64,000 nt of DNA, from assembly GCA_026419785.1 (NCBI GenBank), contig JAODTK010000743.1, positions 130,001 through 194,000 of the forward strand, given 5' to 3'. This DNA is from Sclerodactyla briareus. Its lineage: Eukaryota; Echinodermata; Holothuroidea; Dendrochirotida; Sclerodactylidae. The first letter of the stretch is position 1. Each line of letters opens with the position of its first letter. The position numbers were made by a program, and so were the translations under genes. The notes beneath the pieces were generated by a model. The model saw only the letters and a list, made by a program, of their open reading frames with translations, had not been told where the DNA came from and did no database searches. This document shows, piece by piece, positions 1,851 to 25,655 of the stretch.

Positions 1851-2039
1851 TTACTGGGCAGCAGGGAGATTGTTTCTGTGCTAACAATTTATTGGTCACG
1901 TGGTCTCTTCTGTTACGCCACTGAATCTTTACATAGAAATTCATTGGACATCTGGCGCCATTCATCTCGAGTACAAAGAGGGCGCACGTGTTACGTGCAA
2001 CTCTGAAGGAGAGTGGCGTATGATTACAGCGAATTTCAG

Positions 2040-2225: not shown

Positions 2226-5200
2226 ATAACCCAGTAGACATGATTGCTCGTGGCAAGGTGTTCTAGAATATGTAATTAACGTCCGCAGCTTGGTTTCAGA
2301 CTGTTAATTTCTCTATTTCGAACACTTTCCAAATTTTGCAGCGGTGACTTATTGTAGCTCCCGCCTCCGCAGTAATTTCGTAGCTCAAAAATGATCCACG
2401 TCGTCTGTCAACCGTTCATTTCATATAGAAGAGCTGCTAGAATAGTAAAGTCTCCAATATCATATACTGTTCTTCCTTCACTGAAAAATCACATTCTCTT
2501 GCGGAACCGTAATCCTTACATTCAGGCCCGCACCCCCTCATCCGCGCATATGAAATTCTGAGCTTACTCCAAACCGCCAACATACATATAAATAGAAATG
2601 GCGGGGCCAACTACACATGACTACAGGATAATGTACCTAACATGGATGTCGGGGGCGAAATCATGGTGTATTGGTATCATTGACCTTTGACGCAATAGTC
2701 GGGATCGAAATCCAGCAGTCATCTCTGACGTCTTTCCCGGTGGCTGTACTGACAGTTGCGATAGCCGTGGTCGTGGTCTTCGCTTCACGGCCGCTGTGAT
2801 GCCAATGTTCTTTCCGTCGCTCCTGAGCGGATGCGAACATCGTTGGATACAGCTTCTATGTCCTATTCACACCTTTCCTAGGCCTTACGTTTCCAGCTGG
2901 TAGAGTGAGTTCGGACACACCACCTACCTGGGCAGTTGAACTTCACATTGAGTACTAACCCTAGAAAAATGAATCTCAAAAGTATGCAGCAAAACTATGA
3001 ACAGATTGGTTTACTTTATACGATTAACTATCTAGTGGCATGAATATGAACGAGCCTGGGAATTCCATTCATCTACACTCTATGAAATATTGGGTACCTA
3101 GCACACCTATCCCTGGTGTTGTGTAAGAAAATTACTCAATCATTGCGTACAATTTGGTTATTGTTATTTTGTTATTTTTTTCACAAACGTTGACCAACAC
3201 GGTATAGGTAGCTTGTTCACAGTGTGTGTAATCCTCTACCACATTCTCACGAGTGTATATATATTAGATTTATCGTTCACTCCGCAACAATACAAACATA
3301 ACGTGCAATGATATGAAGATATTTATTACCAACATTCACAAAAATACTACAAAACGAATATCAAAACTTACAGAGCAGAGGTCATATAACACAACATGAA
3401 TATTTAATGCAAGGTATAAACCCTATATTATACACTCTTCATAATCAGCATAAACGAACAACACATCCAACAACACCTTAACCACCTCATATATGTAGTT
3501 TACTATTACCATGGCATTCGCATATGACGATACACTGACCTGTGAATTTCCGAAAGTTGCATTATCGAATGCGTGCTTTCAGATAAGGGCAGAACCGATC
3601 GATCCTGCTTAACCCCCAATCTGGCATTATGAGAAAAACAAAAATGGGTCTTTGGAGGGGAATACTTGGCAGACGTAAATCAGGTGTGAATGTGGTGCGC
3701 TACCTTAATTATTCCTTCAGTCCGGAAGGCTAATTCACGTGCTACTCCATGAGGCTTCAAAATGCTTATAAGGTCATTATATTATAGCATTCGGTTATCT
3801 CTAAAAGACATAGGGATCCACCCCCTGCAGCAAAGCAAATTATTCCAGATCAACCAATCGTTCAATGAAATTTTTCACTGGTATTGTTCGTATTCCATTC
3901 AATGGACACGTTTCCACCACGCCGGGCATAGGCACAAAGTTAGTCGTACAAACATCAGTACCAAACATTGACTTCCACAAACAATAGCGAGAATAACCTC
4001 AGCAATGGTGGGCTGATTGAGGAACTTTGGCCCGATTGATTTATTGGCATTTAGGGGGCTAGTGTCGCAGGCTGTGCGTGATATGGTGTCAAATTTTGAA
4101 GGTCCATATAATATATTTTATATTCCATTTCATTTCACAAAATGAACAAAAAATTGCTCCTTCCATGCCCATCCACTCATGACATGTTCTGATTGAAATA
4201 AATCGGTGCAGAGTGTCACTTACGCAATTTCTTCACGATTATAGATACTAGAAGAACATTAGCAGATAGCGAGTCATTTGCAAGGTGGGGGGGGGGGGGG
4301 GAGTTTTAACAACCAACAATTACTCGAATGCATAACTGTTGTTGTTGTGATAGGTTGAGGCATCAACAGGAAAAAAGGCAGTTGACATGACGAATCAATC
4401 AATAGAATACGGTGCATTCAACAATTTTCGTATATCACTTTGAACTTTTCTATGAAACATTTCTGGGTGTTCCATTCCTCAACATTCCAACAGAAAAAGC
4501 TATTGTCGATATTGTGTCTATATTGCTCAAAACATAGCAGTCCCTATCTAGACAATACTGCATCGCTATATGGTACGTTATCCGTGATGTATCACATAAA
4601 GGGGTCAAACAAAAAGTCAGGCATTCTTATCAATACCACTGCATCCAGTAATCGCTCCGTTGACCTGTCCGTCCCTTTATTATAACATTGGCTTGAATAT
4701 TTCGACCGCAGTTCGTTTTTCTCCTAGAACAAATGATAGGATTTTGCCCAATGTTTCTAGCAGCATTAAATCTACCACCGAATACGTGAATCACGCAACA
4801 GTTTTACAGATTGCACATCGCAGTTAGCGATTTGAGCGTAAGCTCAGTTGAACTCGTGAAGCAGATTCAGAACCAAAGTGTTCTGTGATTCTCATTCTGA
4901 TCGAGCTAAGCAATGTACTAACTAAGGAATAATTAGGAGAGATTCGTCTTTGCACAAATTGCTCACATTCAATCAAAAAAGAAAGATGGTCTACATGAAG
5001 ACGATATATTTCATATCTTCATATTACTAGCGTGTTAATAAGATTTCCTGGCCTTAGATGACGTTGGACCTGACCCTGTTCATGACCTGATGAGCTGATC
5101 ATATACTCATGATGGAGAACCCATGTACCAATTATTGGCTCCATCTATCAAAGGGGGGGGGGGATGAGTACTATTATGTCAAACTATAGGCGTCACATAT

Positions 5201-7322: not shown

Positions 7323-8378
7323 AAGTGGCGTTAACCAACTTTCAAACGGGGGGGGGGCACAAGGGGGGCAACAGACCTTTTGTGGGGGGGGGGGGGGGGG
7401 CACATGAGGGGGGAGGGCACATGTGGGGGCACCTGAATACCATTTATTAGCGGGGAGCGCCACCTACGGTTGGCGCGGTCGTACACGAAAAATTTGGGTT
7501 GCGCAACCCCCAGATGGCCGGAAATGACCCTTTCCGAGCGTTTTTGCTGCATGTACCAAGCTTAAAATCGGGGCATTTTGTGATAACAATCTTGCAATCG
7601 GTTGAAAATTTCAACATTTTGTGAAGCCCTCGAGTTTATCGTGCCCAGACTTTTTGTCCAGAATATTCAATAATTGTGCTCGGCCACTATGTTCACCAGT
7701 TACGCGCGAAGCGCGCAATATTTTTTTAGGGTTTCCGACAACATCTGGAAAAACAGGATTTCACAAGGAAAAATTTGGGACAATTTAGCTATCTCAGCTC
7801 TACTGTCCCAACCCATGATATTAGCGTTCAGTGGAGCAGTTACCTGGAGGGAAACATGCGTTTGGGAAATCGGACAAGAAGCTAATAGCTAAGCTACTGC
7901 AGTTACAAATCGCGTTGGTCGAGGGAGGAGGAGGAAACGGATTGGAGGGGTAAAGCGGTTCAGTAATAAAAAAACAGAGTAGTTGTCAAGGTCAATGAGA
8001 AGGTTGCTTGTATAGTTTCAGTATTAACCTCACAGATTGTATGAGTTAGGGGGCCATGAGGTAGAAATTTCCATAGAGTGTGCGGAGATGACGGAAAGCT
8101 ATGGCGACAGAATCCACTACTAGACTAGTACCGCGCGAAGCGCGATTTTTTCACCTTTTATCGCATTCGAGGCGAATTTAGCACAACTACGGCCTTCGTG
8201 TGATAGTTTCCGTGGTGTTGGCCAGATCTATATCAAACTGTAGTCGAATACTGACTACAGAATAGTTTTTCCCAGAAAATCACAAATCTCATGGGGGGGG
8301 GGGGGGGACGGTTTTCGAGTGGGGGGGGACGTGCCCACTGCCCGCCGCCCCCCCCTGCCCCTATTGGCGACGCCACGC
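7323..8378. mobile_element. Non-autonomous hAT-like transposon (MITE), ~1.05 kb
   Basis: The ends are inverted. The left reads AAGTGGCGTTAACCAA and the right end, reverse-complemented, reads GCGTGGCGTCGCCAATA. Each is followed by a G-rich tract (7,350-7,470 and the complement of 8,290-8,365). The flanks carry a likely 8 bp target duplication, cgttatt on the left and cgtttatt on the right. The duplicated host sequence is continuous across this point at about 37,450 in copy B, so the empty site is seen directly. Two GCGCGAAGCGCG-type palindromes lie inside (near 7,697 and 8,132). There is no transposase ORF. The hAT assignment rests on the GTGGCGT...CCA end style and the 8 bp duplication. Confidence 0.6.
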
Positions 8379-8799
8379 GTTTATTCTCCACTGGCTTGTC
8401 TATGGGCTGCGGTGGACAGTCAGGAGGATCTCCTGTTTGGGGAGGAATACCATATCTCCTGTGGGCGAATTTTAATCAGGGAATCGGATTCACCCACAAT
8501 GCACCGTTTGCATATCAGGAGATACATAAGCTTCAATGGTGGAACCTGTCGTGGAAGCCATTTACGTAGTGGAAAGGCTTAAAAAAATATACCAGTATGG
8601 ATATTATAAAAGGCTACAAAGCTTGGTTGACACTTGTTGGTTTCACAAGGTAATTTCGGAGAAACTAGACAATGTACGGTCTTAATTACAGTGAGCGGGC
8701 ACAGGCGTTGGCCAGTCTACTAGAGCAGGAGCCCAAGGGGGTCAGCCTAGCTGGAGAGGTAACAAATGGAGCCTACACAGTGACAAACGCTATGGCCTT

Positions 8800-9254
8800 C
8801 AAAGGAATGGTCGTCGGGCACGCACCTTCTGGTGGGTGGGGTGGTGAGGGCCTAACAAAAGGCCCAAAAATTAGCGCGGCTTAGCTCCCAGGTAACCGCT
8901 GGAAAAACTACGGAAAAATGTCCAGATTATCCCATGAAAAGGAATTGACCCGGGCAGACATTTTAGTTAGTGGGGTGGGCCCACCAGACGCCAATAACTA
9001 GAGGCCCAACAAAAAAGAGCTAGGGCTTAGCTCATGAGGTAACTAGTTGGAACAAAGTGAAAATGTTGTGGACCAATCCCCCAAGCTCTCACAAATGACC
9101 CAATGACAGGGAAATTTATGTTGTCGTTGGGTGGCCAGACGCCATTACAATCCCCCCCCCTACAAGCTTAACCTGGTTAGATCGTGAGGTAACCAGTGAA
9201 ACAAAAGTAGGAAAAGATCGGGACACTCCCAGCCATCACAAAGACCATGAGGCA
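8800..9254 (+). repeat. ~150 bp tandem repeat, outer left arm, first part
   Basis: About three diverged monomers. Each runs from 'ccagacgcc' through a CTAACCTGGTTAG-type palindrome and 'gtgaggtaac' to 'cccagc...cacaaatgaccc'. The same unit continues after the hAT-like insertion at 12,258-12,500 and appears inverted at 20,590-21,290. Monomers differ by many small indels. Confidence 0.7.
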
Positions 9255-9256
9255 AG

Positions 9257-9435
9257 TGTTGTTGTCGAGACCTGACATCGAACCGAGACCGAGTTCGAGA
9301 CCAAGAGGGTGTTCGGAGGCGGAGACCGAGATCGAGACCAGAGGGTGTCGAGACGAGATCGAGACCAAGCACCAGGAGCACAAGTCGAGACCAGCGACCG
9401 GAGACAGCAAGTCGAGACCGAGATCGAGACAGAAT
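9257..9435. repeat. GAGACC-type minisatellite at left end of the 3.0 kb hAT-like element
   Basis: Irregular tandem copies of cgagaccgagatcgagacc with short spacers such as agagggtgt. Open frames crossing it on both strands give only Arg/Leu/Ser/Asp-rich low-complexity peptides and are not genes. Confidence 0.75.
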
Positions 9436-12089
9436 GTATATAGTGTATGCAAACAAATTCAAAGTCCGAAACTGTATTAGTACGGGCCTATTTACACCCA
9501 CATGCTCTATTCTTGACATGATAGACAACCTATGCTCTTGATTACATTGCTTTTCTATGATCCACAAACGAAAGGGAACAGGCCTAACCACTGAGCCAAA
9601 TCAGGGGTAGTTGCCATGGAACATGCACATTGCACGCCCCCCAACCCCATAAAGCCGTTCCCCCTCCCCCAGTTCGCCGAATTCGTTGGTGAAGCCATGA
9701 ACTAAAATGTACACCTCTCATCACATTTTCAAATGAAATGTCTAAATAAAGTTGAGAAGACCGCGCCAGATGCAGACTGTTCCTCCATGTCTTTCCACAG
9801 TACTGATATGGTACTGATAAAACAGTAACATTTGACCAATGCGATGCCATGGGTGGGCCCTCTCTCACCTCTTCACTGATCTACCTCTTCTACCCCCACC
9901 CCCCCCCACCCCTTCGTCCCCCCTTGGCATGGGAGCTTCTTTCTCTGCATCCTTCATTCAAGCAAGATTCAGATATACGGCGTCCTAAACCAGGAAATTA
10001 ATGATCATCTCTCTCAGTCTATGTATTCCAATTAGAGATTAGATTTTACCCCCCCCCCCTCACCCAACCACCACCCCAGGACACTCTGCTTTCCCTATAT
10101 GGCCAGGTGGGGGCGCATTGGTCTCCTCCATAGCCCCGATCCTAGATCCAAAACCATACAATAACTTGACCCCTTCGAATGCATTACCATTAGCGTTTGT
10201 CTTATGATTGGAGGACAATTTCATATACCAGTACTGTAACGTTGATGTCTCAAGGTCGCCTAGGCCCAGTGAAGCCTGCCAAACGGTGATGAAAACAAAT
10301 TGCACAAAGTGAATTCATTGTCTAGGCTAGGATTCTACTTGTGGTCCTTTCCACAAAACCAGTATAGTTTAAGGTGGTAATTTTCCAATTAATCAAGTGC
10401 TAGCAAATACCCCTTGGACAACACTGCACCAACTGGGGCTAGGAGAGTCACGTGTCAGAAGATTTTACTGTAGCACACACTCCCTTGGAGGTGACGAACT
10501 CCGTCACCTCATGCCTCAAACTTCTCCCTCCAATTACACAGCCCTCTAAACCTTCAAAACTTCATTCAAGAACATTCCAATCACTACAATGTTAAAATTT
10601 CATTAGTAAAATGATGAACATACAAAACTATTTTGACCTCAATAATGAGGAAAATCACCACTGTTTTTCCCCAGCGTGTTTGTTTTGAACAGAGTGTGTA
10701 AACAGAAGTGTTGCACTCAGGGCTCATTTTGGCGATCTATTATTATTGGGGCACATGCAGGACATTACACGAAAATCTGGCATGATTATTTATATCTTAG
10801 AGTGGCAAACTCATAACACAGACAACAACTTGACTGGTGAAGGCATTGTGGGGATCCTGACCTGATTTTGGGTAAAAAAAAAAAAAAAAAATTTGGGTAA
10901 TTTTCCCACGACCGACCAAGCCACTATGAGGAATGAAAAAGTTCTGAACCTTTTCTTCACTACAATAATAGGTCTTTTGGGATATATTGAGATGCAAGTT
11001 GTCAGAAGCTGATTGTGTAACAGAAGGTGGTCGTTAGGCTAGCCTAAAAACAGCTTAGGCCTGGAGTTGGGAACGAGGCTTGAGTCACAGGTCTAAAGCC
11101 TGTGAGCGCAGGCTAGGGCTAGGCCCTAGGGCCTACGTGGTATGGTAGGCCTACTTCGTAGTTTTGAATGCTATAAAGTTCTTAAATACTTATTACATAG
11201 GACGATAACGACTTAATGACAAAGTAGCAATGAAGCATTCAAGTACATGTGAATTAAGTGTCTGAGAAACAAGTCCTCATGCAGGGAATGTGCAGTCAAT
11301 GTCAGAGAAACTTTCGCGAAAACTGGTACAATGTTCATGAAAGGTCCAACCAATCTGCGGAAAAATCGGACAATTCATATTCATGGTTCATATGAAGATA
11401 ATTGATAGTCGTTTGGGTTACTGCAGTAACTATCATAATTCAATTACCAATTACTGCCCCTCATCCCCAGTTAATTAGTGATTGAAATCACTAAATATTC
11501 ACACTCCCTTCTCTTCTAAGTATATCTGATAGTCGTGCCAGTACAGTATACTTCACTTCTGTCACAGTTTCGTATTGGGGTAGCATACGTAACAGGGTAC
11601 CCAGGTTTATAGGTCCGCGTTCTTTTATATTCATTCATTCTCCATCATGATCAGAGTTCAATATATTAGGATTGGATAAAAATTTGGTTGAAAAAGGCCT
11701 AACAATACGGCTTTGAAAATTGTGGAAGCCACAGGATGCTTTTCAGGTTTGAACAGGAACATAACAATTATTTGGAGCATTTTGATTGGCTAATGCCTTA
11801 TATATCCACTGTCAATACAGGCATTCCAGAAGTGAACAAACAGGAATCAGTTACAGGTACTGAACCTTGCCTACTGTCCTGGGTACTGTGCATGTGAGTG
11901 ACTGCCAACAAGTTGAAGCTAGCAACAATACTGGGCCCTGGGCTGTTTCCCACATTGACCAAGTAAGGGATCTAAAGGCCCACTCCACTTGCTAGTTCAT
12001 AGCAAAGCTCAACACATGAATTGAAGGATGTTTTTTCACTGAACTAAAAATGATTCCAAGGGAAAATATCAGCACCAATATTTTTGCTG

Positions 12090-12238
12090 CGTCTCGAAGC
12101 GAGACCGAAGAATTTCCGAGACCAGAAGGTTCGAGACCGAGACCGAGATCGAGACCACAGGGTGTCGAGACCGAGATTGAGACCGAGACCAGCAAAAAAC
12201 TCGTCTCGAGACCGGTCTCGAGACCGAGACCGGTAGTC
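12090..12238. repeat. GAGACC-type minisatellite at right end of the 3.0 kb hAT-like element
   Basis: Same unit and same strand sense as 9,257-9,435 (cgagaccgagaccgagatcg), so the two arrays are direct and only the element's extreme ends are inverted. It includes a palindromic stretch, tctcgagaccggtctcgaga, near 12,208. Confidence 0.75.
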
Positions 12239-12257
12239 GGCGGAACACTACAACACT

Positions 12258-12500
12258 GCCAATGCAGACATTGATGTGGGGGTTGGGTGCGCCAGACGCC
12301 ATACAATATCCCCACCCTTTCAGCTAACCTAGGTTAGCTGTAGTAACCATTGGGACAAAGTAGAAAAGGTTCGTGACACTCCCAGCTATCACAAATGACC
12401 CATGACAGCTTTTAAAGTGGAGGGGTTGGGTGCGCCAGACGCCTTACAATATCTTCACCCCTACAGCTATCCTAGGGGAAACTCGTAAGGTAACTAGTTG
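12258..12500 (+). repeat. ~150 bp tandem repeat, outer left arm, second part
   Basis: About one and a half monomers, continuing the array split by the 3.0 kb insertion. Shared blocks are gttgggtgcgccagacgcc, agctaacctaggttagctg and gacactcccagctatcacaaatgaccc. A poly-G run follows at 12,519-12,533. Confidence 0.75.
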
Positions 12501-12559
12501 ATACAGTAATAGTAATAAGGGGGGGGGGGGGGGTTTTGGCGGTCACGTCTAGTGTTTTT

Positions 12560-12740
12560 TTTTTGCGCTTTGCCGGCGAACAGGACTTGATCTTTATCTG
12601 GTTATGGGAGGCTACCTGAGATCCTGGAATCCGACTCAGTGGATTTTGGGCCTGGCTCTTGGGCAAAACCACTTTAATAATTCGCGGCTTGATGGCGTGG
12701 GATTGCCGTTTGGAGTTGAGTCGCGTGGTGTTTGTCAAAA
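12560..12740. repeat. Middle segment of left arm, inverted partner of 19,795-19,975
   Basis: The reverse complement of this segment matches 19,795-19,975 through blocks such as attaaagtggttttgcccaag versus attaaagcgtttttgcccca, and tagcctcccataac. It lies between the 150 bp repeats and the Penelope-like unit on both sides, which fixes the nested order of the arms. Confidence 0.75.
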
Positions 12741-12756
12741 CGTCTTGAACTGAAAT

Positions 12757-13460
12757 GGCTTAACTAAGTCTGACATGTGTCTTTGAGAAAGTCCAACATA
12801 GTAGGTTGCATTCAAGTGTCCATGCGCCTGTTGATCAACGGCGGTCCCTTCGTGATATTGTTAATCAGGCAAAAATAATAGCCGACTGAACAATTTGATC
12901 ACTTGTAGTTGGCTCGGGACTTGTAAGCTGAGTTGGACAGTTAATGCAAAAAACGCTTCAGAGTTGTATCGTTCTTCTGGCAAATATCAATGTATTTGTA
13001 TACAGTGACGCCGATTGAACAATTTGATCATTTTGTGAGGTTTTGGGGGTTTGGTTAAAACGACTGTGGTATGTTCAATGTATGCTCAAATAGTTTGCCA
13101 CTTGACAGTCCGTCAGTGAAAATTGTTAAACGGGCGGGTATATAACCCCTATTTTGAACAATGTTCACCTTGTTTAGCCTTTTTGACTCGGGACTGGTAT
13201 GAGGAGGTATGAAAGCGAGTGAGACGGTAGCGACGCATTTAGGACGCCCGACGAAATATCGTTTCGACGCGACACGGAATCGACACGATATATCGTCACA
13301 ATGATATCGAGCGACATCATTGTAACCCTAGTGTCGAAATATCGCGAGACGACATTCCCGCCAGGCTCCACATGCGTGCCGTGATCCACTGCCCCTCTCT
13401 GGTGGAGTTAGGCATGTTAGGAGCAGTATGTGACGTGAGTGAGCCTTTGTTGGCTTGAGA
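12757..13460. repeat. Left inverted arm of Penelope-like unit 1
   Basis: Begins GGCTTaACtAAGT, mirrored at the right end of the unit near 15,641-15,653. It contains two sub-repeats with the near-palindromic core tgaacaatttgatca (near 12,886 and 13,016), spaced 130 bp apart. An alternating cgatatatcg/tcattgt segment follows at 13,255-13,345. The inner end overlaps the C-terminal side of the reverse-transcriptase reading frame. Confidence 0.75.
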
Positions 13461-13639
13461 CTTTGAACCAGACTATAGTTTCTGCCCTCGGTATTATTTT
13501 GGGGCTTCATCAGTGGTATCGTATGCGGGCCGTGTCTCTGTTTATGGTACAACTTTGAGTATTTTGTTTATAGTGCTGCGATCAACTCATCGAGAAGAGT
13601 ATCGTCTTCGCTTTCTGTTTGTTCGTGTGCATGCCCGTG

Positions 13640-14740
13640 TGGAAATCAGGATTTAACTACTAAATCTCTGAGATTTTGTGCCCTTTTGTAGGCAATTATG
13701 GGGCTTTGGGGAAACAGTTGCGAAAGTTCTGGGTGACCGTTTATCAAGTGCCAATGCTCAGTTAAGGCCTCTTTTAGGTCCCTGGTTTTGACATGGGGGG
13801 TGTATGTTAGTTTGAACACCAGTGGTGGTTCTGATTTGCGTGCCGGGCGTCGCATATTTGTCGCGGTCCTCAAGCTTGATAGCATTGGACACGGATACCA
13901 CCTCTCCTTTCGTGTAGTTACGGAGCAAAAGTTTTTCTGTGAAAATTGTTTTTTTCTCGATGAAGTCAGCGCTGTCTGCCTCATTGTTGCATAGGCGTGC
14001 ATACCTTAGGACTTCCCCTTTGATAAAGCCATTGAAAGTTTGTGCATAACAGTGTCGCAGATCTCAGGGGGACGCTTGACTGCCATTGCGCAACCATTTT
14101 TTTGTCTATAAAATTGGGCGTTGAATTCAAAGCAGTTGCGTGAAAGTATAAGATCAATGAGTTTGCGCATTGATATGGACGATATTTTCGGTATATTGTA
14201 ATAGTCCTCAGGTGCGTATGCAACCTGGCATGCGTCGAGAGCCTCATCCTGCGGCGTGTTGGTGTACATTGATATGACATCCAGAGTAGCGATAAATTAG
14301 CTGGTAATATCAACCCCTGCAGTAGTGTAAGGCTGTGATTTGTGTCTTTCACATAGTTTCTTGCCTTGCTACTATTGGAAGGAGGAAATAATCCACAAAG
14401 GCTGAGATTGGCTCTGTTGGGGACCCGTTACCGCCTATGATAGGTCTGCCTGCAAAATTTGAGTTTGCTGGAGGTGCTTTGTGCACCTTAGGCAAGACGT
14501 ATATCATGGGCGTGCGGGTCTTACGGTTGTGTGGATTTTGGTAGTTGAATGTCTCTTCGTCTATTTCTTTCTCCTGCAAGGGCGTTAGGTCGTCGGCGTG
14601 GCTCCGGATTTTCTGGTACGAGGCGTTGGATACGGCCTAGGACTTCTTTGGTGAGTCTCAAGCCAGCAAAGGTTCTTAAACGTCACATACTGCTCCCAGC
14701 ATGCTTAATTCGTCCTAGGGAGGGGCAGTGGGACACGGTA
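13640..14740 (-). pseudogene. Penelope-like element reverse transcriptase, unit 1 (internally deleted)
   Basis: The reverse-strand frames spell typical Penelope-like (PLE) blocks. MIYVLPKVHKAPP and GRPIIGGNGSPTEP lie near 14,435-14,500. The motif A region YTNTPQDEALDAC lies near 14,230-14,266. The motif B region NGCAM...PPEICDTVMHKL lies near 14,040-14,095. The post-palm block KGEVLRYARLCNNEAD lies near 13,970-14,030. HWHLINGHPELSQLFPQSPI and KRAQNLRDLVVKS lie at 13,646-13,760. The stretch that should hold catalytic motif C (xxDD) between motif B and KGEVLRY is absent. Compared with unit 2, 1.13 kb encoding the N-terminal domain is also deleted at about 14,570. No GIY-YIG endonuclease follows. 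Several frameshifts are present. Confidence 0.8.
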
Positions 14741-15653
14741 CGCACTCGTGGCTTGCCGGCAGATACCGTCTCGCGATATATCGATAGTGTGGTTGCATTG
14801 ATATCATTGTGACGATATACCGTATCGATATCAAATCGCATTGGGACGGTATTTCGCCGCAACGTCATGGAAGCGTCACCGTCGTTTTACTAGCTGGTCA
14901 TAACTCCTCATGCCAGTCCCCAGCCACACAAAGGCTACACACATGAACAACTTGTTCAAATCGATGGTTATTAACCTGCCCGATTAACAATTTCACTGAA
15001 AGGGACTGTGACTAATTGACAGGACATGAGCATCTCATGAAATACCATAGTCTTTTCAACCCAGCGTTTAAAGTTCTAGCCTGAATTATGGCATCCCAAG
15101 GTGGTCAAATTGTTCAGTCGGCAAATATGCATCTATATTTGTCCGATTAACGATACCACTCCTAAACCTTTACACACTCCTGCTCAACTCATCGTGATAA
15201 GTCCAGTGCTAATAAAAAGCTTACAAAGTGATCAAATTGTTCAATCAGCTATATAGTATTTCCATGATTAACAATATCACGGACGGACTATTGCTATTGA
15301 CAAGGCGCATGGGCGTTTCTTGAACTCACCAAAGTCGGTTCTATCCATCGTTAAAAGTTTCAACCTAGAATGTAGTTTCCGAAGTGGTCAAATTGTTCAG
15401 TCGGCATTTATAAACACTTTTTGCCAGACTAACGATACCACTCACGAACTTTTAAAACATGCCTGCTCAACTTGACTCACTTGACCTGGGCTAAAAAAGC
15501 TCACAGTGATCAAATTGTTCAATCGGCTATGCATAATTTCAGCATGATTGACAATATCACAGACGGGTCATGGCTAATTGACAGGCGCATGGCACTCATG
15601 AACACAACACGTGTTAGACTTACTAAAGTCATCTATCCAACTTAGTCAAGCCA
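14640..15653. repeat. Right inverted arm of Penelope-like unit 1
   Basis: Reverse-complement partner of 12,757-13,460, longer and with more sub-repeats. Cores of the form tgatcaaattgttcaatcgg start near 15,101, 15,228, 15,384 and 15,506, so they alternate at roughly 125 and 155 bp. Each is followed by a gattaacaatatcac-type block. The arm ends acttagtcaagcc at 15,653. Confidence 0.75.
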
Positions 15654-15669
15654 ATTGACTAACTGAAAT

Positions 15670-16390
15670 GGCTTAACCAAGTCCGACATGTGTCTTTGAG
15701 TAGTCTAACACATAGAGTTTGGCATTCAGTGTCCCTGCGACTGTTGACAACGGCGGTCCTTCGTGAGATTGTTAATCAGGCAAAATAATAGCCGACTGAA
15801 CAATTTGATCACTTGTAGTTGGCTCGGGACTTGTAAGCTGAGTTGGACAGTTAATGCAAAAAACGCTTCAGAGTTGTATCGTTCTTCTGGCAAATATCAA
15901 TGTATTTGTATACAGTGACGCCGATTGAACAATTTGATCATTTGTGAGGTTTTGGGGGTTTGGTTTAAAACGACTGTGGTATGTTCAATGTATGCTCAAA
16001 TCGTTTGCCACTTGACAGTCCGTCAGTGAAATTGTTAATCGGGCGGTATATAACCCCTATTTTGAACAATGTTCACCTTTTTTAGTCTGTTTTTTGACTC
16101 GGGACTGGATACTGAGGAGGTAGGTGAAAGCGAGTTGAGACGGTACGAACGCATTTAGGAACGCCCGACGCAGATATCGTTTCGACGGCGATACCCACGG
16201 AATCGAACACGATATATCGTCACAAATATATCGAGCGACATCATTGTAACCCTAGTGTCGAAATATCGCGAGAACAAACATTCCCTCCCAGGCTCCACAT
16301 GCGTGCCCGTTATCCACTGCCCCTCTCTGGTGGAGTTAGACATGTTAGGAGCAGTATGTGACGTGAGTGAGCCTTTGTTGGCCTTGAGAC
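15670..16390. repeat. Left inverted arm of Penelope-like unit 2
   Basis: Direct copy of 12,757-13,460 with small indels. Long identical runs, such as aatgcaaaaaacgcttcag and the 130 bp spaced tgaacaatttgatca cores, show that the two units arose by recent tandem duplication. Confidence 0.8.
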
Positions 16391-16599
16391 TTTGAACCAG
16401 ACTATAGTTTCTGCCGTCAGTATTATTTTGGGGCTTCACAGTGGTATCGTATTGCGGCCGTGTCTCTGTTTATGGTACAACTTTTGAGTCATTTTGTTTT
16501 AAAGTGCTGCGATCAACTCATCGAGAGGAGTATCGTCTTCGCTTTCTGTTTTGGTTCTGTGGCCATGCCAGTGTGGAAATCAGTGATTTAACTACTAAA

Positions 16600-18790
16600 T
16601 TATCTTTGAGATTTTGTGCCCTTTTTTAGGCAATTATGGGGCTTTTGGGGAAACAGTTGCGAAAGTTCTGGGTGACCGTTATCAAGTGCCAATGCTCAGT
16701 TAAGGCCTCTTTTAGGTCCCTGGTTTTGACATGGGGGGTGTATTGTTAGTTTGAACACCATGTGTTTCGTGAATTTTGCGTTCCGGTCGTCGCATCATTT
16801 GTTCGCGGTCCTCATGCTTGAGGGCATTGGACTCGGATACCACCTCTCCTTTCTTGTAGTTACGGAGCAAAAGTTTTTCTGTGAAATGGTTTTTTCTCGA
16901 TGAAGTCAGCGCTGTCTGCCTCATTGTTGCATAGGCGGGCATACCTTAGGACTTCCCCGTTGATAACATTATTAAAGCCATTGAAAGTTTGTGCAAACGT
17001 TTGTCGCAGATCTTCAGGGGACGCTGGAATGCCATTGCCGCAACCATTTTTTTGGCTATTAAAATTGGGCGTTGAATTCAAAAGCAGTTGCGCGAAAGTA
17101 TAAGATCAATGAGTGTGCGCATTGATATGGACGATATTTCGGAGTTTATATTGTCATAGTCCTCAGGTGCGTATGCAAACCTGGCATGTGGCGAGAGCCT
17201 CATCATGTAGCGTGTTGGTGTACATTGATAGGACATCCAGAGTAGCGATAAAGTTTAGAATGGTAATATCAACCCCTGCAGTAGTGTAAGGATGTGATTG
17301 GTGTGGTCGTTCACATAGTTCTTTGCCTTGCTACTATTGGGAGGAGGAAATAATTCACAAAGGCTGAGATTGGCTCTGTTGGGGACCCGACCGGATATTG
17401 TAGGTCGGCCTGCAAATTTGGAGTTTGATGGAGGTGCTTGTGCACCTTAGGCAAGACGTATATCATGGGCGTGCGGTCTTACCGTGTGTGTGTATTTTGG
17501 TTAGTTGAATGTCTCTTCGTCTATTTCTTTGTTGGAGGGCATGTTGAAAGCGGTTTGGAACAACCGTCGGTGGTGGCTTCGGTTAGGTCGCTCGGTAACC
17601 GTTAGTGATGACCGCCTTTCGATGACGTTCGAATCTCAGTTTGATAATCGGACGCGATTGAGTATGGCTATGCCTCTTCCTTTGTAGAAGGCTTTACCAC
17701 AAGGGAGTAATCGTTCCTAATTGTATTTAGGGCCATGCGTTCTGCTTTCGTGGATTGTTGCGGCATTCTCATAAAGAATGACTAGCAACTCAACTTTGCT
17801 TGCCTCAGGTTATTCTCCAAACGTGCTGGTTTAAGGTCTCTTGAGGGACCATGTGGAAGCATGCGGAATATTTGTGTTCGTTTCTATGTATGACTAAACG
17901 AGGGCCATTGTTCTGTTGAGTTCCTTTAGGAGAGGAGAAAATGCGTACGCTTCGGTTTATCTGGGTCATGATGACGAACCCCACCTAGGGCGATAACACT
18001 AATATTGTATATAGAGGGCTGTCTGCTAGGTTTCTGAGTTTATTTGCCTCATTTTGATGGTTTGGCGGTGGCTACGTGTAGCCCGCGTACTGACGGGGTT
18101 GATAACGATTCGGTTATATTTAATAGTAACTTTACCCGCTCTGTAATTTTCGTTTTTTTTTGTTAGACGGGGTAGTGTTCTTACCTCATGACAGTAAAAG
18201 AAATGTTGACACGGACATAGGCTTGTTGAGAGAGATTGCGCTGATGCCCAACCCTTTCTGGTGCTAAAAAAGAAGCAGTTTGATCACAGAACAAAAGGTC
18301 TGGCGCATCTGGCATTGGATGGTCCGCAGCAAGCTTCTTAGCAGGACGGCTGGATTCGACGTTGTCCTGTAGGACTAGTATTCCTGTTGAGCCCTGTGTA
18401 TTTTTCTTGGAAGCGGCTTTGTACCAGCTTCGCCCCCACCCACTGCTGCACGACCGGAGGGATCTTCGCGCCAGGTTGTGACGCGAGGTTCTGCCCGACG
18501 GAGTGACGAGTCCCCAGACTCTAGTCAGTCCACTCAGTACAACGTTTTGCACACCTGGGAGTGTTGGATAACTCTTGTTTACCCGGAGGTAGTTAGGGGT
18601 GTATCCTTCCGAGTTCTGTCGGTCGAGTTTCTCAAGCTCCGTTTTAAGACGAAGAATCTTCTCCTGCAAGGGCGTTAGGTCGTCAGGGCGTGGCTCCGGA
18701 TTTTCTGGTAGCGGCGTGGATACGGGACTAGGACTTCTTTGGTGAGTCTCAAGCCAGCAAAGGTTCTTAAACGTCACATACTGCTCGCAG
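16600..18790 (-). pseudogene. Penelope-like element reverse transcriptase, unit 2 (longer copy, RT motif C missing)
   Basis: The N-terminal domain is open for 198 codons at 18,181-18,777. It starts MTFKNLCWLETHQ and includes the coiled-coil-like LQEKILRLKTELEKL and NYLRVNKSYPTLPGV. The pre-RT block NTIRNDYSLVVKPSTKEEA lies near 17,660-17,720. LPKVHK lies near 17,445, the YTN motif A region near 17,215, GEVLRYARLCNNEAD near 16,910-16,950, and HWHL...FP near 16,640-16,700. As in unit 1, motif B runs straight into the KGEVLRY block near 17,000, so the region expected to hold catalytic motif C is missing. No GIY-YIG endonuclease is seen. Frameshifts occur, some perhaps from consensus error. Confidence 0.8.
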
Positions 18791-19775
18791 CATGCTCAAT
18801 TCGTCAAGGGAGGGGCAGTGGGACACAATACGCACTCGTGGCTTGCGGCAGATACCGTCTCGCGATATATCGATAGTGTGGTTGCATTGATGACATTGTG
18901 ACGATATACCGTATCGATATAAATTCGCATTGACGGTATTTCCGCAGCAACGTCATGGAAGCATCACCGTCTTTCACTAGCTGGTCATAACTCCTCATGC
19001 CAGTCCCCAGCCTTACAAAGGGATACACACATGAACAACTTGTTCAAATCGATGGTTATAACCTGCCCGATTAAACAATTTCACTGAAGGGACGTCCTAA
19101 TTGACAGACATGAGCATCTATGAACATACCATAGTCTTTTCAACCCAGCGTTTAAAGTTCTGCCTGAATTATGGTCATCCCAGGTGGTCAAATTGTTCAG
19201 TCGGCAAATATGCCATATCTATTTGTCCGATTAACGGGATACACTCCTAAACCTTTAAACAACCCCTGCTCAACTCAGCGTGGTAAGTCCTGTGCTAATA
19301 AATTCTTACAAAGTGATCAAATTGTTCAATCAGCTAATAGTATTTCAGCCATGATTAACAATATCACGGACGGACTATTGATAATGACAAGGCCGCATGG
19401 GCGTTTTTCCTTGAACTCACCAAAGTCGGTTCTATCCATCGTTAAAAGTTTCAACCTAGAAGGTAGTTCCGAAGTGTAGTCGGGTCAAATGTTCAGTCGG
19501 CATATAAACACTTTTTGCCAGACTAACGATACCACTCACGACCTTTTAAACATGCCTCTTCTTGGACGGAGATGGCCAGCCGCTGGCTCAACTTGATACT
19601 CACTTGACCTGAGGCTAAAAAGCTCACAGTGATCAAATTGTTCAATCCGGTATGAATAATGTCCAGCATTGATTGACAATATCACAGACGGGTCATGGCA
19701 TTGACAGGAGAATGGGCACTCATGAACACAACAGTGTTAGACTTACTAAAGTCATCTATCCAACTTAGTCAAGCC
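18725..19775. repeat. Right inverted arm of Penelope-like unit 2
   Basis: Direct copy of 14,640-15,653 and inverse of 15,670-16,390. It carries the same ladder of tcaaattgttca cores (near 19,190, 19,316, 19,485 in degraded form, and 19,631). A 29 bp insertion near 19,558 is absent from unit 1. The arm ends acttagtcaagcc at 19,775. Confidence 0.8.
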
Positions 19776-19794
19776 AATTGGGACATTGTTCAAT

Positions 19795-19975
19795 TTGTTG
19801 TGACGAACAAACACCAATGCAACTCAAAACGACAACTCAGCACTAAGCCACGAAATATTAAAGCGTTTTTGCCCCAAGTCCAGGCCCAAAAGCCGTGAGT
19901 GCGGTCTCGGGATTTCCAGGAATCTCAGTTAGCCTCCCATAACAATCAAATCTTGTTCGCCAGCACAGCGCACAC
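19795..19975. repeat. Middle segment of right arm, inverted partner of 12,560-12,740
   Basis: Matches the reverse complement of 12,560-12,740 nearly throughout. The short open frame across it is an artefact of the repeat. Confidence 0.75.
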
Positions 19976-20505
19976 GAGTATGGTGAACGGTCAAACCCCA
20001 CTTACTAAAGGATTCCCACTTTGTGCAATCATGGAAGTGCTTCCAGCGTAGCAAAATAGTCGTGGTTGTATGGTTGGCACATCTTCCACTTGAAACGATC
20101 TGAATGCGATTAGTCACGATAATATGACAAAAGTAAACACTTTATATCCTTTTCAACTGGTAAGCTTCATGGCTGTTGCCAGGTGTCCGTAATATACGGC
20201 GCCAACTATTCTTATAATTTCCACAGCTGCCTTATTTGGAAATCCTCTCTATAAAATGTGGTGAACACTTCTTCCTGCAATTGTGCGGTTTGTCAGTGGC
20301 AAAACTGGGTGACATGAGATGACACAAGGTCAGTTTTGTCCAATCCAACACTCAAATTGATTTTAGTAGTTATACATATCAGTTAATCTGACCGGATGTA
20401 ATGCCGTTTGAACCCATAAAATTTCTTTCTGTCCTGTTTGATGGTTTTCTATCATGCGTGGGATTTCAGCTAGTGGCATTAAATAAAACTCTATTGAACA
20501 ATCGA
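19976..20505. other. Right-arm-only segment of the composite element
   Basis: About 0.5 kb with no counterpart on the left arm, where the 150 bp repeat is followed within ~60 bp by the 12,560 segment. It is either an insertion here or a deletion on the left. No gene or terminal repeat was recognised. Confidence 0.5.
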
Positions 20506-21300
20506 GATCTCCAGTTGGTTACCTACGAGCTACATATACTAGGTTTAGCACGCCATGGGTTTGAGAGGATATTGTATGGCGTCTGACAAAAAAACATTCC
20601 TGACCCACCCACTTAAAATGTCTGTAATTGGATCACTTGTGATAGCTGGAAGGTCACGAACATGTTCAACTTTGTTACAGCTGGTTACCTTACAGCTAAC
20701 CTAGGTTAGATTGGGGGTGGGGTGTATTGTATGGCGCGTATGGCGCATCCCAAACCCACAACTTGAAGTGTCGTCATGGTCATTTGTGATAGCTGGGAGT
20801 GTAACACGAACATTTCTACTTTTGTTTCCAATGGTACCTCACGAGATAACCTAGGTTAACTGTAGGGGTGGTGGGATTGAAATGGCGTCTGGGCACCCCA
20901 AACCACCACTTAATATGTCTGGCATTGGTCATTTCTCATAGATGGGGAGCGCGGCGCGAACATTTTCAACTTTGTTTCCAATGTTACCTTACGAGCTAAC
21001 TAGGTTAAGATGTAGGGGTGGGGGTATTGGATGGCGTCTGGCGAACCCAACCCACCACTTAAAAGGCTCTGTCATGGGTAGTTTGTGATAGCTGGGAGTG
21101 TAAACGAACAGTTCTACTTTGTTTCAACTGGTTACCTAGAGATAAGCTAGCCTCTTTTTGGGCCCCAAAAAAGTTTTGAATTGGGTCTGGCGGGCCAACC
21201 CCACCACTACAAAGTCTGTCCGGGTCATCCATGTTTAAACGAGATAATGCTGGATTTTGCCGTAGGATTTCCCGCGGGTACAGCGGGAGCTAAGCTAGGC
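20505..21300 (-). repeat. ~150 bp tandem repeat, outer right arm
   Basis: About five monomers in the opposite orientation to 8,800-9,254 and 12,258-12,500. The landmark 'tgtctg(t)...catttgtgatagctgggagtg' recurs near 20,619, 20,768, 20,918, 21,068 and 21,211, a spacing of about 143-150 bp. Each monomer includes the palindrome ctaacctaggttag or a degraded form. Confidence 0.8.
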
Positions 21301-21539
21301 TCTTAATTTTTGGCCGTTGTTATGGCCCTCAACACCCAACCCCAACAGAAGGTGCGTGCCAGACGAACATTTTCCGTGCAAAGGGCCATAGCGTTTGCCA
21401 CTGCTGTATGGATCAACAATTGGTACCCCCAGCTAGGCTGACCCCCTTGGGCTCCCGGTCTATACCGTTGCCAGTGCGTGGGTTTCTTATATAGCTCGCT
21501 CTCACAACAACGGTACACACAACGACTGTTGTCGGCCAA

Positions 21540-22200
21540 TGCACTGAGCGCGGCAGATTTGAACAGCAGTAATTAAATGTTCAGCCGGTCTGCAGTGCGT
21601 GTGTGTGATACACACTAGGCATCTTGGTTGTGTTGTGAAGGGCGTAGCGAAGGTTGTATTTTACAGATCTTAGCAAACCCTTATGTATCGAACTCGTGAA
21701 GACATGAAGCCTATCAAGAAGGGTAAGCTAATATGAACCCAGAGGTGAAGTTCTACTTGTTAATACAGTTGTTCTACGCAGGAATAGCGAAAAGTATCTG
21801 TCTGGGTTCTGTTTTTTTTTCCTTAAACACGGGCAAGACCGTTATCAGAAACGTCTGGCCGTCATTCTATCAGCATGACGTGTTTACTTCATTTGCATAC
21901 GGATTCTCCTGTTCGTATCGAACACTGTAAGTTTATGGGGAAGACCCCAGGGGACACGGTGAAGTGATGTACTGAAATGGGCGTCGGCGGAAGAGTACAG
22001 GCAAGTGGTGCGGTTCTGCACAGTACGGATGTGACAAGTCAGGACTGATCAGTAATGATATCTGACCTGGGAAGCACTATATAAGAACGAATATCATTAT
22101 TTAAAATCGAGCAGTAGAGACCTTGCGACAGCTCGAGGACGGCCTGTCAGCCAAGATCATCTCTGGACGTATGGCAGAGTCCACAAAAGCCTTCCTTTTT
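21540..22200. other. Non-repeat stretch between the composite element and the copy A duplication
   Basis: The only coding hint is a plus-strand frame, 21,733-21,928. It starts MNPEVKFYLLIQLFYAG, contains a mildly hydrophobic N-terminus, and ends at a strong donor-like ACT|GTAAGT at about 21,928. It has no recognised domain and no partner exon in view. Nothing else was recognised. Confidence 0.3.
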
Positions 22201-23159
22201 AATATGCCTATCGAGTTTCGACAATAGTAGGCATGTTAGACTCGGCAGATGAGTTAGCCACTGGTAATGCAACACTATCCATTTGGTCGATCAGCCCTGT
22301 ACATTCCTCGAAGGACGCAGCCCAGCAGGCACTCAAATCAAACATGTCGTGGCAGCTATGTAGCCGTATGGGCCGACTGAGAGACTCCTGTTGTCGAGTA
22401 CCTCTTCATCGAGTCTCAATGGTGCTGGAACTTCGATCACGACGCAATGTCACACGCCATTTGCCTATCTCTCAGGGTATTTGCAACGGTAAGTACTCCT
22501 TAAGAAAGTGCCCAGTCGCCAGACGATGCCGTTTGAGGAAGAGGCCTTGTAGTCTCCAAAGCAACTGATCAAGCGGGTCATTATGAACTGCGGCAACATA
22601 ACGATCTTTCAGTTGGCTAACAGCAAACCTATTGAAGCCTGATGTAGCTTTCTTCGGGGTTCTGAATGCCGAAAAGTGATAACCAGCAGGCTGTGATCTG
22701 TCGTGAGAAAACTGGATCTCATGAATACCTTTTGCAGTTCTTGATATCCTCTCGCCCCCCCCCCCCCACCACCCTCAATGATGAGTCAAGCAACCAAGTT
22801 CTCATTACAATACAGGTAGACTGGATCCAGGAAACAAATTGCGACGAGCCACCTCTAATTGAGCTGGGGCGACCAGTGCGGAGAGTTGGAAGATGATTCG
22901 GCACCACCAGCACAGTGTCTCAACAATAAACGTATAGGTTTTTTTTTCTTTCTAGACTGGGAGTTTTCGAGGAACCCGGTCCTTTAAGGGCGCGATGCCC
23001 CATGATGTGCGGTAAATGTTGCATATGTGACACACGTTCGTCGAACTGCCAGGGTATCCCTATTCACCGTTGAAACCAATAGAATTATAATAGAAATAAT
23101 CGATTATTTTCTTCAAAATATGTCTGCACTGATCGTTTCAGCCATATTCTCACTTACCG

Positions 23160-23250
23160 TTAACAATATTAGGATAATAGTAATAATAATACTAATACTA
23201 ATACCAATACTGATATCAATAATAATAATAATAATAAAAATAAAAATGAA

Positions 23251-23289
<39 letters not shown>

Positions 23290-23330
23290 TATAATAATAA
23301 CAATAATAATAATAGTAAATACTATTGAAA
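23160..23330. repeat. AAT/ATT-rich microsatellite
   Basis: Imperfect (ata)n / (aat)n tract, nearly pure at 23,215-23,310. Both strands are open across it and give poly-isoleucine peptides, which are artefacts. Confidence 0.95.
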
Positions 23331-23451
23331 ATAGTGTCACCTAATAGTCCATTAGCGTTGTAGGCCTACAGAAACGAACCTCATTAACGGCCCCGTAGAA
23401 CAGCGCCTTTCCAAATCGATGCTTGCGCTGCTGATGTTCTTAGAAAATAAT

Positions 23452-23836
23452 TCATAGCACTATATTTTTTCTCATAACATTATTGACACGAATGGTTTTC
23501 ATGCAATAGTCGGTACTCATTCGCAATTTCATCCCCGTTCGACGAATCTCAGCGGTCGGGCACAGTCCATTCAAATAATAGCATTCGATATATGCACTAC
23601 AGCGACAAGTTATGTACCCCGCCTCCGAAAGGGAGGTAGTGAGAACCATCTGTATATGACCAATATAACGCACCACAGTCAGAAGGTGCTTCACATCGAA
23701 TGCATCCACGCCTACCAAAGATAACGTCGTGCTCAATTACACTAGTATAAATACATTCCGAAGCAAGGCTACCCTCACAGAGGAAGACTGTAGTAGAAGC
23801 AGTGATGAGCAGTATCACGAGAACCAATTTGAACAT
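23452..23836 (-). pseudogene. Cysteine-rich secreted/receptor ectodomain exon, copy A (signal peptide present, middle deleted)
   Basis: The reverse strand starts at M (23,836) with a classic signal peptide (MFKLVLVILLITAS, then a small-residue region). It continues through CIYTSVIEHDVIFGRRGCI and CEAPSDCGALYWSYTDGSHY. About 90 bp present in copy B are missing after SHYLPF. This shifts frame, and the downstream part (ITCRCSAYIECYYLNGLCPTAE) is read in a second frame to 23,452. The splice donor used in copy B (AAA|GTAAGT) is here changed to an ATGAGT-like sequence. The domain has many Cys, Tyr and aromatic residues and matches no family I can name. As it stands this copy encodes only a short secreted peptide, and it is probably a pseudogene. 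Confidence 0.5.
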
Positions 23837-24272
23837 GTTGCTCCAGAACCAACCCGACCAATGTAATGTCTTTTAAACTTGTCCGAACAACGACAAAACA
23901 AAGCATAAAGTTGCCGATAGGTCGTACGTTGAGCAAATTAATACTGACATGAAAAGACAAGGAGTGTTCAACAAACTGGGAACTAGGAAATTGCACTGGC
24001 CGCCAGCAGCGAACTACTGTCATGTTCCCCAATAGATACATACGGTAAGTATTATAATGATATCATTTCCTATGTTTCCGGGAAAACGAGGAAGTAGGAT
24101 CGATGTTCAGTTACTGCTACTTTTCCCATGGCTACAACATTTAGAAAAGCAGTATATATTAGAATAAACCAAGTATCAAGCCCAAACTCAACAAATTCAA
24201 ATTTATGTTGATTAATGGCTTGAAACGGGTGCGTGGGGCCTGCCTAGAGCGACGGCAGCGGTGGGAAGTGGC

Positions 24273-24288
24273 GGGGGGGGGGGGGGGT
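24273..24288 (+). repeat. Poly-G tract expanded relative to paralogue
   Basis: A run of 16 G where copy B has five (near 42,766) within the shared 'gtggcggggg...ttgt' context. This shows a homopolymer expansion, or a base-calling artefact, since the duplication. Confidence 0.8.
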
Positions 24289-24654
24289 TGTCACATTATC
24301 GTTAAAGTGGCTCTCTCGAAGAAAGAAGGAAGATGAACCGTCGGGTAATATGAGTACTGAATATTAATGATATTTTAGCTGTTCTTCGTAAATGTAAGTC
24401 GCATGATGGCAATGAACCAATTAATGATGATGGGTACAGAATGTCATAACAAGAACATGAATACAACAAAATTTGCTAAGGTTCAACAGGTGACGTCTCT
24501 GTCTCTGTTCTTGTATTTTCCTCTCCCCGATGCTGGTCCATCTCGACACCAGTGTCGAGAGTCGTCCGGGGACAGTTCGATCTATATTTGCTCCACGTGT
24601 GGAGGACATCACCTTATCGAAATTCTTTCAATGTGTCTTTATAACCCTATGGTT

Positions 24655-25260
24655 CCCGACAACAAGTTCTCGACGAAAGTTTACGTCTCAATTTTTGGCT
24701 ATTGCTAACGCTAGGCCCCATCCTGATTTGGTGTGTGAACACTGCTTCCTGTGCAACCTACTCGTCAGACGATCTGCTTGGGATTAGAGGGGATTTAGCC
24801 CCTGTCAACAATCATCAGCGAATTAGACCATTCACCCCTAAAGAATGCAGCACCTTGAACGAGATGGGCATCGCCAGGCGAACAAAGCAAGGAAATCGCG
24901 GCGAGTTGCGCGGCGAGTTGCGCTGTGACTCGCGGAATGATCCTATTATTACCAGTATTATAACTACCCTCCAGGTATACAATTATCTTCCGAAACCTCG
25001 AGTGACGTGTGTTGGGGTGGCTTATGCGTCGTTTTTATGTTCCTCACTAGAGCTACTGACGCAGATCGTTAACATTTCGAATCATGTTGAATATTTTGTC
25101 AAAACTCCTGCACATGCTGTATTCAAACTTTTCGCAATTCGTCGCCCCACCCTCAGCAAAGAACAGGCTAACACATGCAGTTGCATAAAGATGAAAGATG
25201 CTGCCAGGTTCCTGGAGTATATATAACGTATACACAACTGGCTTCCGGCAACTTGTGTAG
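24655..25260 (+). promoter_or_regulatory. Conserved upstream flank with TATA-like motif, copy A
   Basis: This block occurs three times (here, 43,097-43,900 and 50,833-51,645). Near its end all three share a TATA-like core on the plus strand, GGAGTATATATAacg here at about 25,215. It is followed at 30-40 bp by 'cttccggcaacttgtgtagg'. A TATA box plus a conserved downstream segment is promoter-like, but no transcript evidence exists and the gene it might drive is unknown. The 174-codon ORF across the block is not kept open in the other two copies. Confidence 0.3.
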
Positions 25261-25325
25261 GAACTAACACATCGTAATGGACATGCCTTTAATCTAATTA
25301 TTTCCAGAACGATCGATTATTTGAC

Positions 25326-25655
25326 TACTGCTGTAAACGTTTTATGGGGTGTAGTTTCCGCATGACTTTCGCGAGCCATTCTCTCAATTTGCATCCATCA
25401 ATAATTCATGTGTTCCTGTTCGCGAATACAACTCGGTTTTCGGGCGGTTGCTCGACGAGCGTGCACCTTTGAGAACTCCACTCTTATCCTTTCGACCAGT
25501 GGTCCCCTTGTTTGCAGATTAAGTAAAGGAGGCGAAGCATCCACACGCAGCTCACGGCATCTCCAGAATCAGTAACCTTCGGAAAAAAACCTAGATCAAG
25601 GGTCGGCCGAGCGACCTGTAAATGCGTTCGTACCCTCTGACCTATCGATTACTGT
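25326..25655. other. Anonymous DNA between duplication copy A and LINE fragment
   Basis: No motif, repeat or exon recognised. Confidence 0.4.

Follow-up and report, generated by a model that had tools for sequence, protein, structure and literature searches.

A mirror-image repeat in the Sclerodactyla briareus genome appears to be a Penelope-like element carried inside a foldback-like transposon

What kind of mobile element is bounded on one side by several successive layers of sequence that recur, inverted and in mirror order, on its other side, while its core derives from a reverse transcriptase (RT) gene of the Penelope type? The question is raised by a 64,000-bp stretch of the holothuroid Sclerodactyla briareus (assembly GCA_026419785.1, contig JAODTK010000743.1, positions 130,001–194,000 of the forward strand), hereafter called the window. 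An earlier note, made from the sequence of the window alone, had described four mirrored layers around two Penelope-like units at 8672..21530, and weighed two readings: a Penelope-like family whose inverted flanks are very long, and a foldback element with a captured Penelope-like element. The giant mirror-image structure appears to be a Penelope-like element (PLE) carried inside a second, foldback-like transposon. We give a probability of about 0.7 to such a two-storey composite, in which a non-autonomous, foldback-like terminal inverted repeat (TIR) transposon encloses a Penelope-like retroelement with inverted arms of its own. An otherwise baffling mirror structure is thereby explained as nested insertions.

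Structure of the Element in the Window

The layers were mapped by gapped self-BLAST of the window, which bore out the four layers in mirror order around the two units. They form a mirror-symmetric single insertion, the aligned ends of which lie at 8,721 and 21,462 rather than at the wider limits proposed earlier. The trinucleotide TAC flanks it on each side (8718..8720 and 21463..21465) as the left and right copies of a 3-bp target site duplication (TSD).

The outer arm (O) is represented on the left, or C-side, by a distal part built of ~150-bp units and ending in the terminus TAGAGCAGGAGCCC (8721..9250, plus strand) and by a proximal part (12258..12505, plus strand); about 3 kb between them (~9,251–12,257) is a separate inserted repeat. 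Its right, or N-side, counterpart (O', 20508..21462, minus strand) consists of 150-bp tandem units, an array of which was delimited by Tandem Repeats Finder at 20,603–21,150. Positions 8,721–9,220 match 21,462–20,957 in inverted orientation (75%, E 2e-72), and the segments 12,250–12,492 and 12,259–12,500 pair with the 150-bp array at 20,678–21,086 (E 2e-34 and 6e-35). When the interval 9,251–12,257 is left out, 86.6% of 724 aligned positions are identical between the two outer arms.

Inside the left outer arm lie the T arm (12510..12747, plus strand), the C-side terminus of the inner Penelope-like element, and the I arm (12748..13462, plus strand), the C-side inner inverted arm of unit 1. They are followed by the RT coding remains of this unit (13463..14569, minus strand; open reading frame (ORF) stop at 13568–13570) and by the N-side I' arm, inverted relative to the I arm (14654..15657, plus strand). 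Unit 2 comprises a second I arm and RT remains with the same RT deletion as unit 1 (15661..17530, plus strand), a segment termed N1, which is the N-terminal part of the RT ORF (17531..18658, minus strand), and the upstream end of the RT ORF with an I' arm (18659..19780, plus strand). The T' arm (19781..20012, minus strand) is the N-side terminus of the inner element. Between T' and O' there are 495 bp (gapR, 20013..20507) without a left-side partner, which we assign to the outer transposon. Inverted matches within the inner layers link 12,564–12,903 to 19,972–19,628 (E 2e-28), 12,844–13,462 to 15,288–14,654 (E 5e-55), and 13,053–13,462 to 19,145–18,745 (E 1e-37). The two RT units are repeated directly in tandem, 12,748–14,570 corresponding to 15,661–17,530 (91%) and 14,569–15,657 to 18,659–19,780 (89%).

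Recurrence in the Host Genome

Searches of the host assembly (319 Mb, 3,171 contigs), in which only the best-scoring candidates of each probe were counted, returned at least 40 genome matches for the T arm (best 40 of 176 candidates), at least 65 for the outer arm (best 40 of 89), at least 40 for the terminal 80 bp of the outer arm (best 40 of 60), and at least 41 for gapR (best 40 of 43). Window probes were mapped on 20 further loci, namely the 18 highest T-arm matches after the window itself together with C1941 and C1075, a sample chosen by similarity to the window. At 18 of the 20 loci the outer arms stand beside the core, with O adjoining T. All layers follow one order (O at both ends, T, I, RT, N1, I', inverted T, and gapR) at 11 loci (L009, L012, L013, L014, L015, L017, L018, L020, L022, L026, and L027), the RT being matched only in part at L015. 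Four loci (L019, L021, L023, and L025) lack T' or one O arm, three (L010, L024, and L028) reach the end of the examined stretch, and two (L011 and L016) have T without O; N1 is present in 17 of the 20. Two more loci with composite layers, L034 and L035, also have O beside T. Flanks are ordinary-looking, and 18 of the 20 loci are on contigs of at least 171 kb. No related loci were found among plasmids, and none were confirmed among viral contigs or, by one pattern, among genome contigs.

A composite copy at L039 (C3147:4400-14300) has its left outer arm and adjacent sequence tandemly duplicated (1–1657 versus 1876–3542, 82%), with about 1.9 kb separating the outer arm from T.

Outer Ends and Target Site Duplication

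Alignment of 37 segments at the outer terminus revealed that nearly all carry TAGAGCRGGAGCCC, errors aside, next to unrelated flanking sequence; the exceptions are L017_L_2051, which is internal, and a few segments in which the terminus is not preserved (L014_L, L018_R, and L022_L). The 3-bp flanks are identical in 6 of 15 two-ended elements (the window copy with TAC, L009, L013, L017, L033, and L035), as against 5 of 210 pairs that combine flanks from different loci. For lengths of 2, 4, and 5 bp, identical flanks were observed in 0, 1 (L020), and 0 of the 15 elements, and in 16, 1, and 1 of the 210 controls. The outer storey therefore carries a TSD of fixed length, 3 bp, and it has the long TIRs with internal tandem repeats that characterise foldback-type TIR transposons. 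Given the assembly noise, six exact cases out of 15 are compatible with a 3-bp duplication at every element. The fixed 3-bp TSD is the mark of a transposase, presumably supplied in trans. Two other assignments of the ends were rejected: a TSD of TA only, in favour of 3 bp, and TTAA ends of the KolobokP kind, since TTAA at 8,682 and 21,573 falls outside the aligned termini.

Divergence of the Outer and Inner Arms

Assembly noise amounts to about 5% substitutions and 13–15% gap columns per copy. Repeat copies differ from each other with a transition/transversion ratio (ts/tv) of about 0.5 (0.32–0.63) and 9–15% gap columns, and because these differences carry the signature of noise, divergence within repeat families is not datable from this assembly. 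The outer arms do not sort by side (CC 0.205, NN 0.183, CN 0.201), and the two arms of the window differ with a ts/tv of 30/67, resembling assembly noise. In four comparisons of inner arms the ts/tv was 46/34, 55/38, 36/33, and 42/44, compared to 0.32–0.63 between copies. Values above the between-copy range indicate that the inner arms have truly diverged, and they would be older than the outer pair.

Occurrence of the Inner Element and the Outer Arms Apart from Each Other

The border of T is itself a terminus: homology between L033 and L043 extends to T, and beyond it the two loci are unrelated. Neither O nor gapR was found outside T at eight loci within the flank examined, which was 1,454 bp at L011, 1,457 bp at L016, 3,592 bp at L043, and 38–66 bp at L053–L057. 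Scores of the nearest flanks at these T-only loci were within the shuffle range, while four positive controls taken from composite copies scored 50–89 against O. When whole flanks were compared, L011 and L016 remained below the shuffle maximum; the L043 flank scored 78 versus 76 for proximal O and 142 versus 134 for gapR, with only 10 shuffles each, and was taken as no match. At L043 (C1114) a sister RT is accompanied by one T arm, and O, gapR, and the other inner arm were not found in the 9.5 kb around it.

Outer sequences likewise occur without the core. An outer arm is present at C2849, and at C2051 the outer terminus is matched over 51 bp; at both, gapR-like sequence (71–72%) is followed by about 0.8 kb without a PLE, and these PLE-free stretches are related to each other. 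At L033, outer arms that are 88% alike enclose a piece of a PLE from another family, the L043 type. The finding of arms and core apart from each other argues for a nested composite.

Among the T-only loci, L016 (1458–1795) and L056 (42–391) contain elements of about 350 bp with inverted T termini at both ends, possibly a miniature derivative of the inner PLE; the flanks of these two short elements are related and resemble the inner I' arm. An interpretation of L011 and L016 as 5'-truncated retrocopies was dropped, since L056 has a T end on either side, the two separated by about 350 bp, and the end of L016 has an inverted counterpart. The matches of L057 and L011 to the I arm cease at one shared point, which suggests subfamilies.

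The Reverse Transcriptase Gene

The RT fragments of the window alone matched no RT family in Pfam or NCBIfam. Joined pieces of the majority sequence of about 15 genomic copies matched RVT_1 (6.9e-9, 36.1 bits, cut-off 29.6), and an RT domain is predicted on this basis; they also had weak PDB matches to Drt3a RT (0.0013) and LtrA (0.017). The family majority contains the motifs KPFDKG, LPKVHK, LDVISMYTN, GCAMG, RYRDD, and NLRDLLVKS, of which KPFDKG, LPKVHK, MYTN, CAMG, and NLRDLLVKS are taken by us as PLE markers. The RT at C1216 (L040), presumably PLE-like, matches the palm (3e-11) and the C-terminus (8e-8) of the family of the window copy (the W family). After LRDILV, L040 has a Cys-rich stretch, which we assume to be the linker of canonical PLEs; no Pfam match to GIY-YIG was obtained in L040.

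The majority ORF of the W family ends 26 aa past LRDLLVKS, and the GIY-YIG endonuclease of canonical PLEs is not predicted in its C-terminus. No endonuclease was matched in Pfam in the three frames of either window unit, and none of the 3 genomic matches to PF01541 is on a contig carrying W-family copies. The sister L043 keeps the C-terminal residues and has a stop at the matching place in a neighbouring frame; the ORF end is probably common to both. Openness of the majority ORF is unstable between consensus methods. Comparison of the W-family majority with L043 revealed 110/81/178 differences by codon position and a dN/dS of 0.118 over 315 codons, a pattern showing apparent purifying selection on the RT between sister families. 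Such selection implies that the RT gene of the inner element would once have been functional. A search for a hammerhead ribozyme gave no Rfam match with E up to 5 within 8,000–22,000, where assembly noise could hide one.

Proposed Origin of the Composite and Alternative Explanations

In the proposed composite, the outer storey would be a non-autonomous element with arms of ~0.8–0.9 kb made of ~150-bp tandem units and the common termini described above, integrating with a 3-bp target duplication by means of a transposase that presumably acts in trans. The inner storey would be an RT coding sequence without GIY-YIG, bounded by the diverged arms T (~0.24 kb) and I (~0.7–1.0 kb) and seated between one outer arm and gapR. 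The PLE would have entered the outer element, and not the reverse. The outer transposase would then have spread the package, which measures about 6.6–7 kb in copies without enlargement, to some 40 loci; the whole package was most likely moved by DNA transposition, with a putative trans-acting transposase recognising the outer termini. The window copy has, in addition, an RT deletion, an inner unit duplicated in tandem, a unit 1 without N1, and a hAT-like insertion.

Both readings of the earlier note survive in part, each for a different layer. A Penelope-like family with long inverted flanks fits the inner element, whose inverted arms and terminus belong to it; a foldback element that captured a PLE fits the foldback-like outer arms with their 3-bp TSD. 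Independent occurrence of arms and core, which the note would have counted against a single element, is seen at the T-only loci and at C2051 and C2849, but the two are together in 18 of 20 loci.

This togetherness might also be expected of a single retroelement, that is, a PLE with compound inverted arms of about 2 kb made by its own RT, the arm-less copies being truncated or belonging to older families. It would agree with such an origin that C2051 and C2849 are the only examined outer-arm loci without a PLE next to gapR-like sequence, and PLE copies with an adjacent inverted pseudo-long terminal repeat (pLTR) are known (PMC3846280). However, the T border serves as a terminus without the outer arms, the outer arms are homogeneous while the inner ones are truly diverged, and a fixed 3-bp TSD with two-ended copies is unlike target-primed insertion, which makes this explanation unlikely. 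We consider it improbable that the RT is a functionless passive passenger of a foldback DNA transposon. The window RT does lack the catalytic block in both units, and differences among copies have no third-position excess (0.121/0.113/0.112, p 0.75); however, this codon test is uninformative because copies differ from one another in the manner of assembly noise (ts/tv about 0.5), and purifying selection between the sister families points to a gene that worked for the inner element in the past. A fold-over or misjoin of the assembly, named in the earlier note as a possible refutation, would have to draw on the very noisy assembly and on the tandem duplication, which could be an assembly duplication. 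We rejected the fold-over because the composite recurs across loci in the same order, with the mirrored structure at 11 of 20 loci having different flanks; the arms, moreover, are interrupted, unequal, and unequally diverged, and an artefact of this kind is extremely improbable.

Several observations weigh against the two-storey composite. Five of the eight T-only loci have just 38–66 bp of flank, and the flanks of L016, L053, and L056 are related and I'-like, so that these may not be independent loci. The outer arm without the core is represented by C2051 and C2849 only, where the elements are seen in part. No empty O–gapR–O' copy was encountered among 9 spot-checked gapR copies of the 41 matches, of which 7 have T' adjacent and 2 are of a diverged family, and no TSD was readable at the borders of the inner element. 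At the outer ends, 9 of 15 TSDs are inexact, for which noise may account, and the ends are poorly preserved at several loci (L012, L018, and L034). A DDE_Tnp_4 transposase, which would have placed the family in PIF/Harbinger with its 3-bp TSD, was not found in a family member: none of the 14 genomic matches to this domain is at a known outer-arm locus, other superfamilies not having been searched. As to the selection on the RT, the proportion of synonymous differences (pS, 0.738) is near saturation and the codon sample is biased to segments conserved in tblastn.

One could tentatively hypothesise that an endonuclease-less PLE with inverted rather than direct terminal repeats uses the foldback transposon as a vehicle, the arms recognised by the transposase replacing the endonuclease at internal sites. 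The association would have originated, or been maintained, in no fewer than two PLE families (W and L033/L043), making it a recurrent class I/class II chimera and no accident, a possibility we regard as rather doubtful.

Secondary Changes and Neighbouring Repeats

Both units of the window copy lack about 300 bp at 14,038/14,039 that most mapped copies have; placed by comparison with the family majority, the missing part includes RYRDD. A larger deletion is found at the same place of the RT in L034. The deletion is common to both units and is thus older than their duplication. N1, in addition, is missing from unit 1. The inner unit was not found in tandem at any other mapped locus, and its doubling might have arisen in the assembly; the units differ with a ts/tv of 0.32–0.33.

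The secondary insertion in the left outer arm (9251..12257) has ends GTGTTGT..ACAACACTG, which in an end alignment form short inverted repeats of hAT type (score 52 versus a shuffled maximum of 33), and an imperfect 8-bp duplication was read by eye; it is a putative hAT-like element. The sequence between the ends is a member of a separate interspersed family with at least 55 genome matches (best 40 of 219 candidates). CGAGACC minisatellites are located at both ends.

Elsewhere in the window, about 20 kb (43917–63820) are occupied by a satellite of 164–178 bp in arrays of both orientations (43917–46769, 46801–50837, 52174–54496, 54535–62204, and 62354–63820). A dispersed segment lies between two of the arrays, and the inverted arrays around a repeat recall the layout of the outer arms. 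A second dispersed repeat is direct (22204–25339 versus 39048–43807, 70–92% in pieces), and its end recurs at 50834–51559, between two satellite arrays.

Comparison with Known Systems

The closest match to the outer storey is the foldback element Tetris of Drosophila virilis, described as apparently non-autonomous, with TIRs containing internal tandem repeats of ~220 bp, as thought to be mobilised by the transposase of another element, and as having a TIR end in common with another element (PMC4079207). The repeats are ~150 bp here, and the likeness is one of descriptions, the sequences being uncompared; the Tetris abstract names no RT cargo, whereas an RT is carried here (PMC4079207). With canonical Penelope/Poseidon elements the inner storey would share a PLE-type RT, judging by homology to the PLE-like L040, and tandem copies as well as an adjacent inverted pLTR have been described for PLEs (PMC11167929, PMC3846280). 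In contrast to canonical PLEs, no GIY-YIG was found here, the arms are inverted and not direct, and no hammerhead ribozyme was found; the latter is reported from PLE terminal repeats but is not universal.

Athena elements and Terminons of bdelloid rotifers have, as here, an RT without GIY-YIG in the same ORF, and chromosome ends are where PLEs deficient in the endonuclease have been described (PMC6431247). The T terminus has a G run on the plus strand, and it is a speculative parallel that the RT-strand transcript might end C-rich, like the 3' transcript end of the telomere-attaching Terminons (PMC6431247). However, those elements attach to chromosome ends (PMC6431247), whereas 18 of 20 copies here are on contigs of at least 171 kb; the inner element, moreover, is flanked on either side by inverted arms and lies within a second transposon. 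Composite-like KolobokP DNA transposons resemble the present element in composite architecture and in forming multimers, but have direct long terminal repeats and encode a DDD/E transposase, neither of which was seen here (PMC9587614).

No description of a PLE inside a foldback element was found among the open-licence papers listed, judged by titles and the beginnings of abstracts. If the proposed composite is correct, an inverted-arm PLE riding a DNA transposon would provide, beside the attachment to chromosome ends in Athena and Terminons, another route by which an endonuclease-less RT reaches internal sites, and a concrete system for asking how frequently class I and class II elements fuse.

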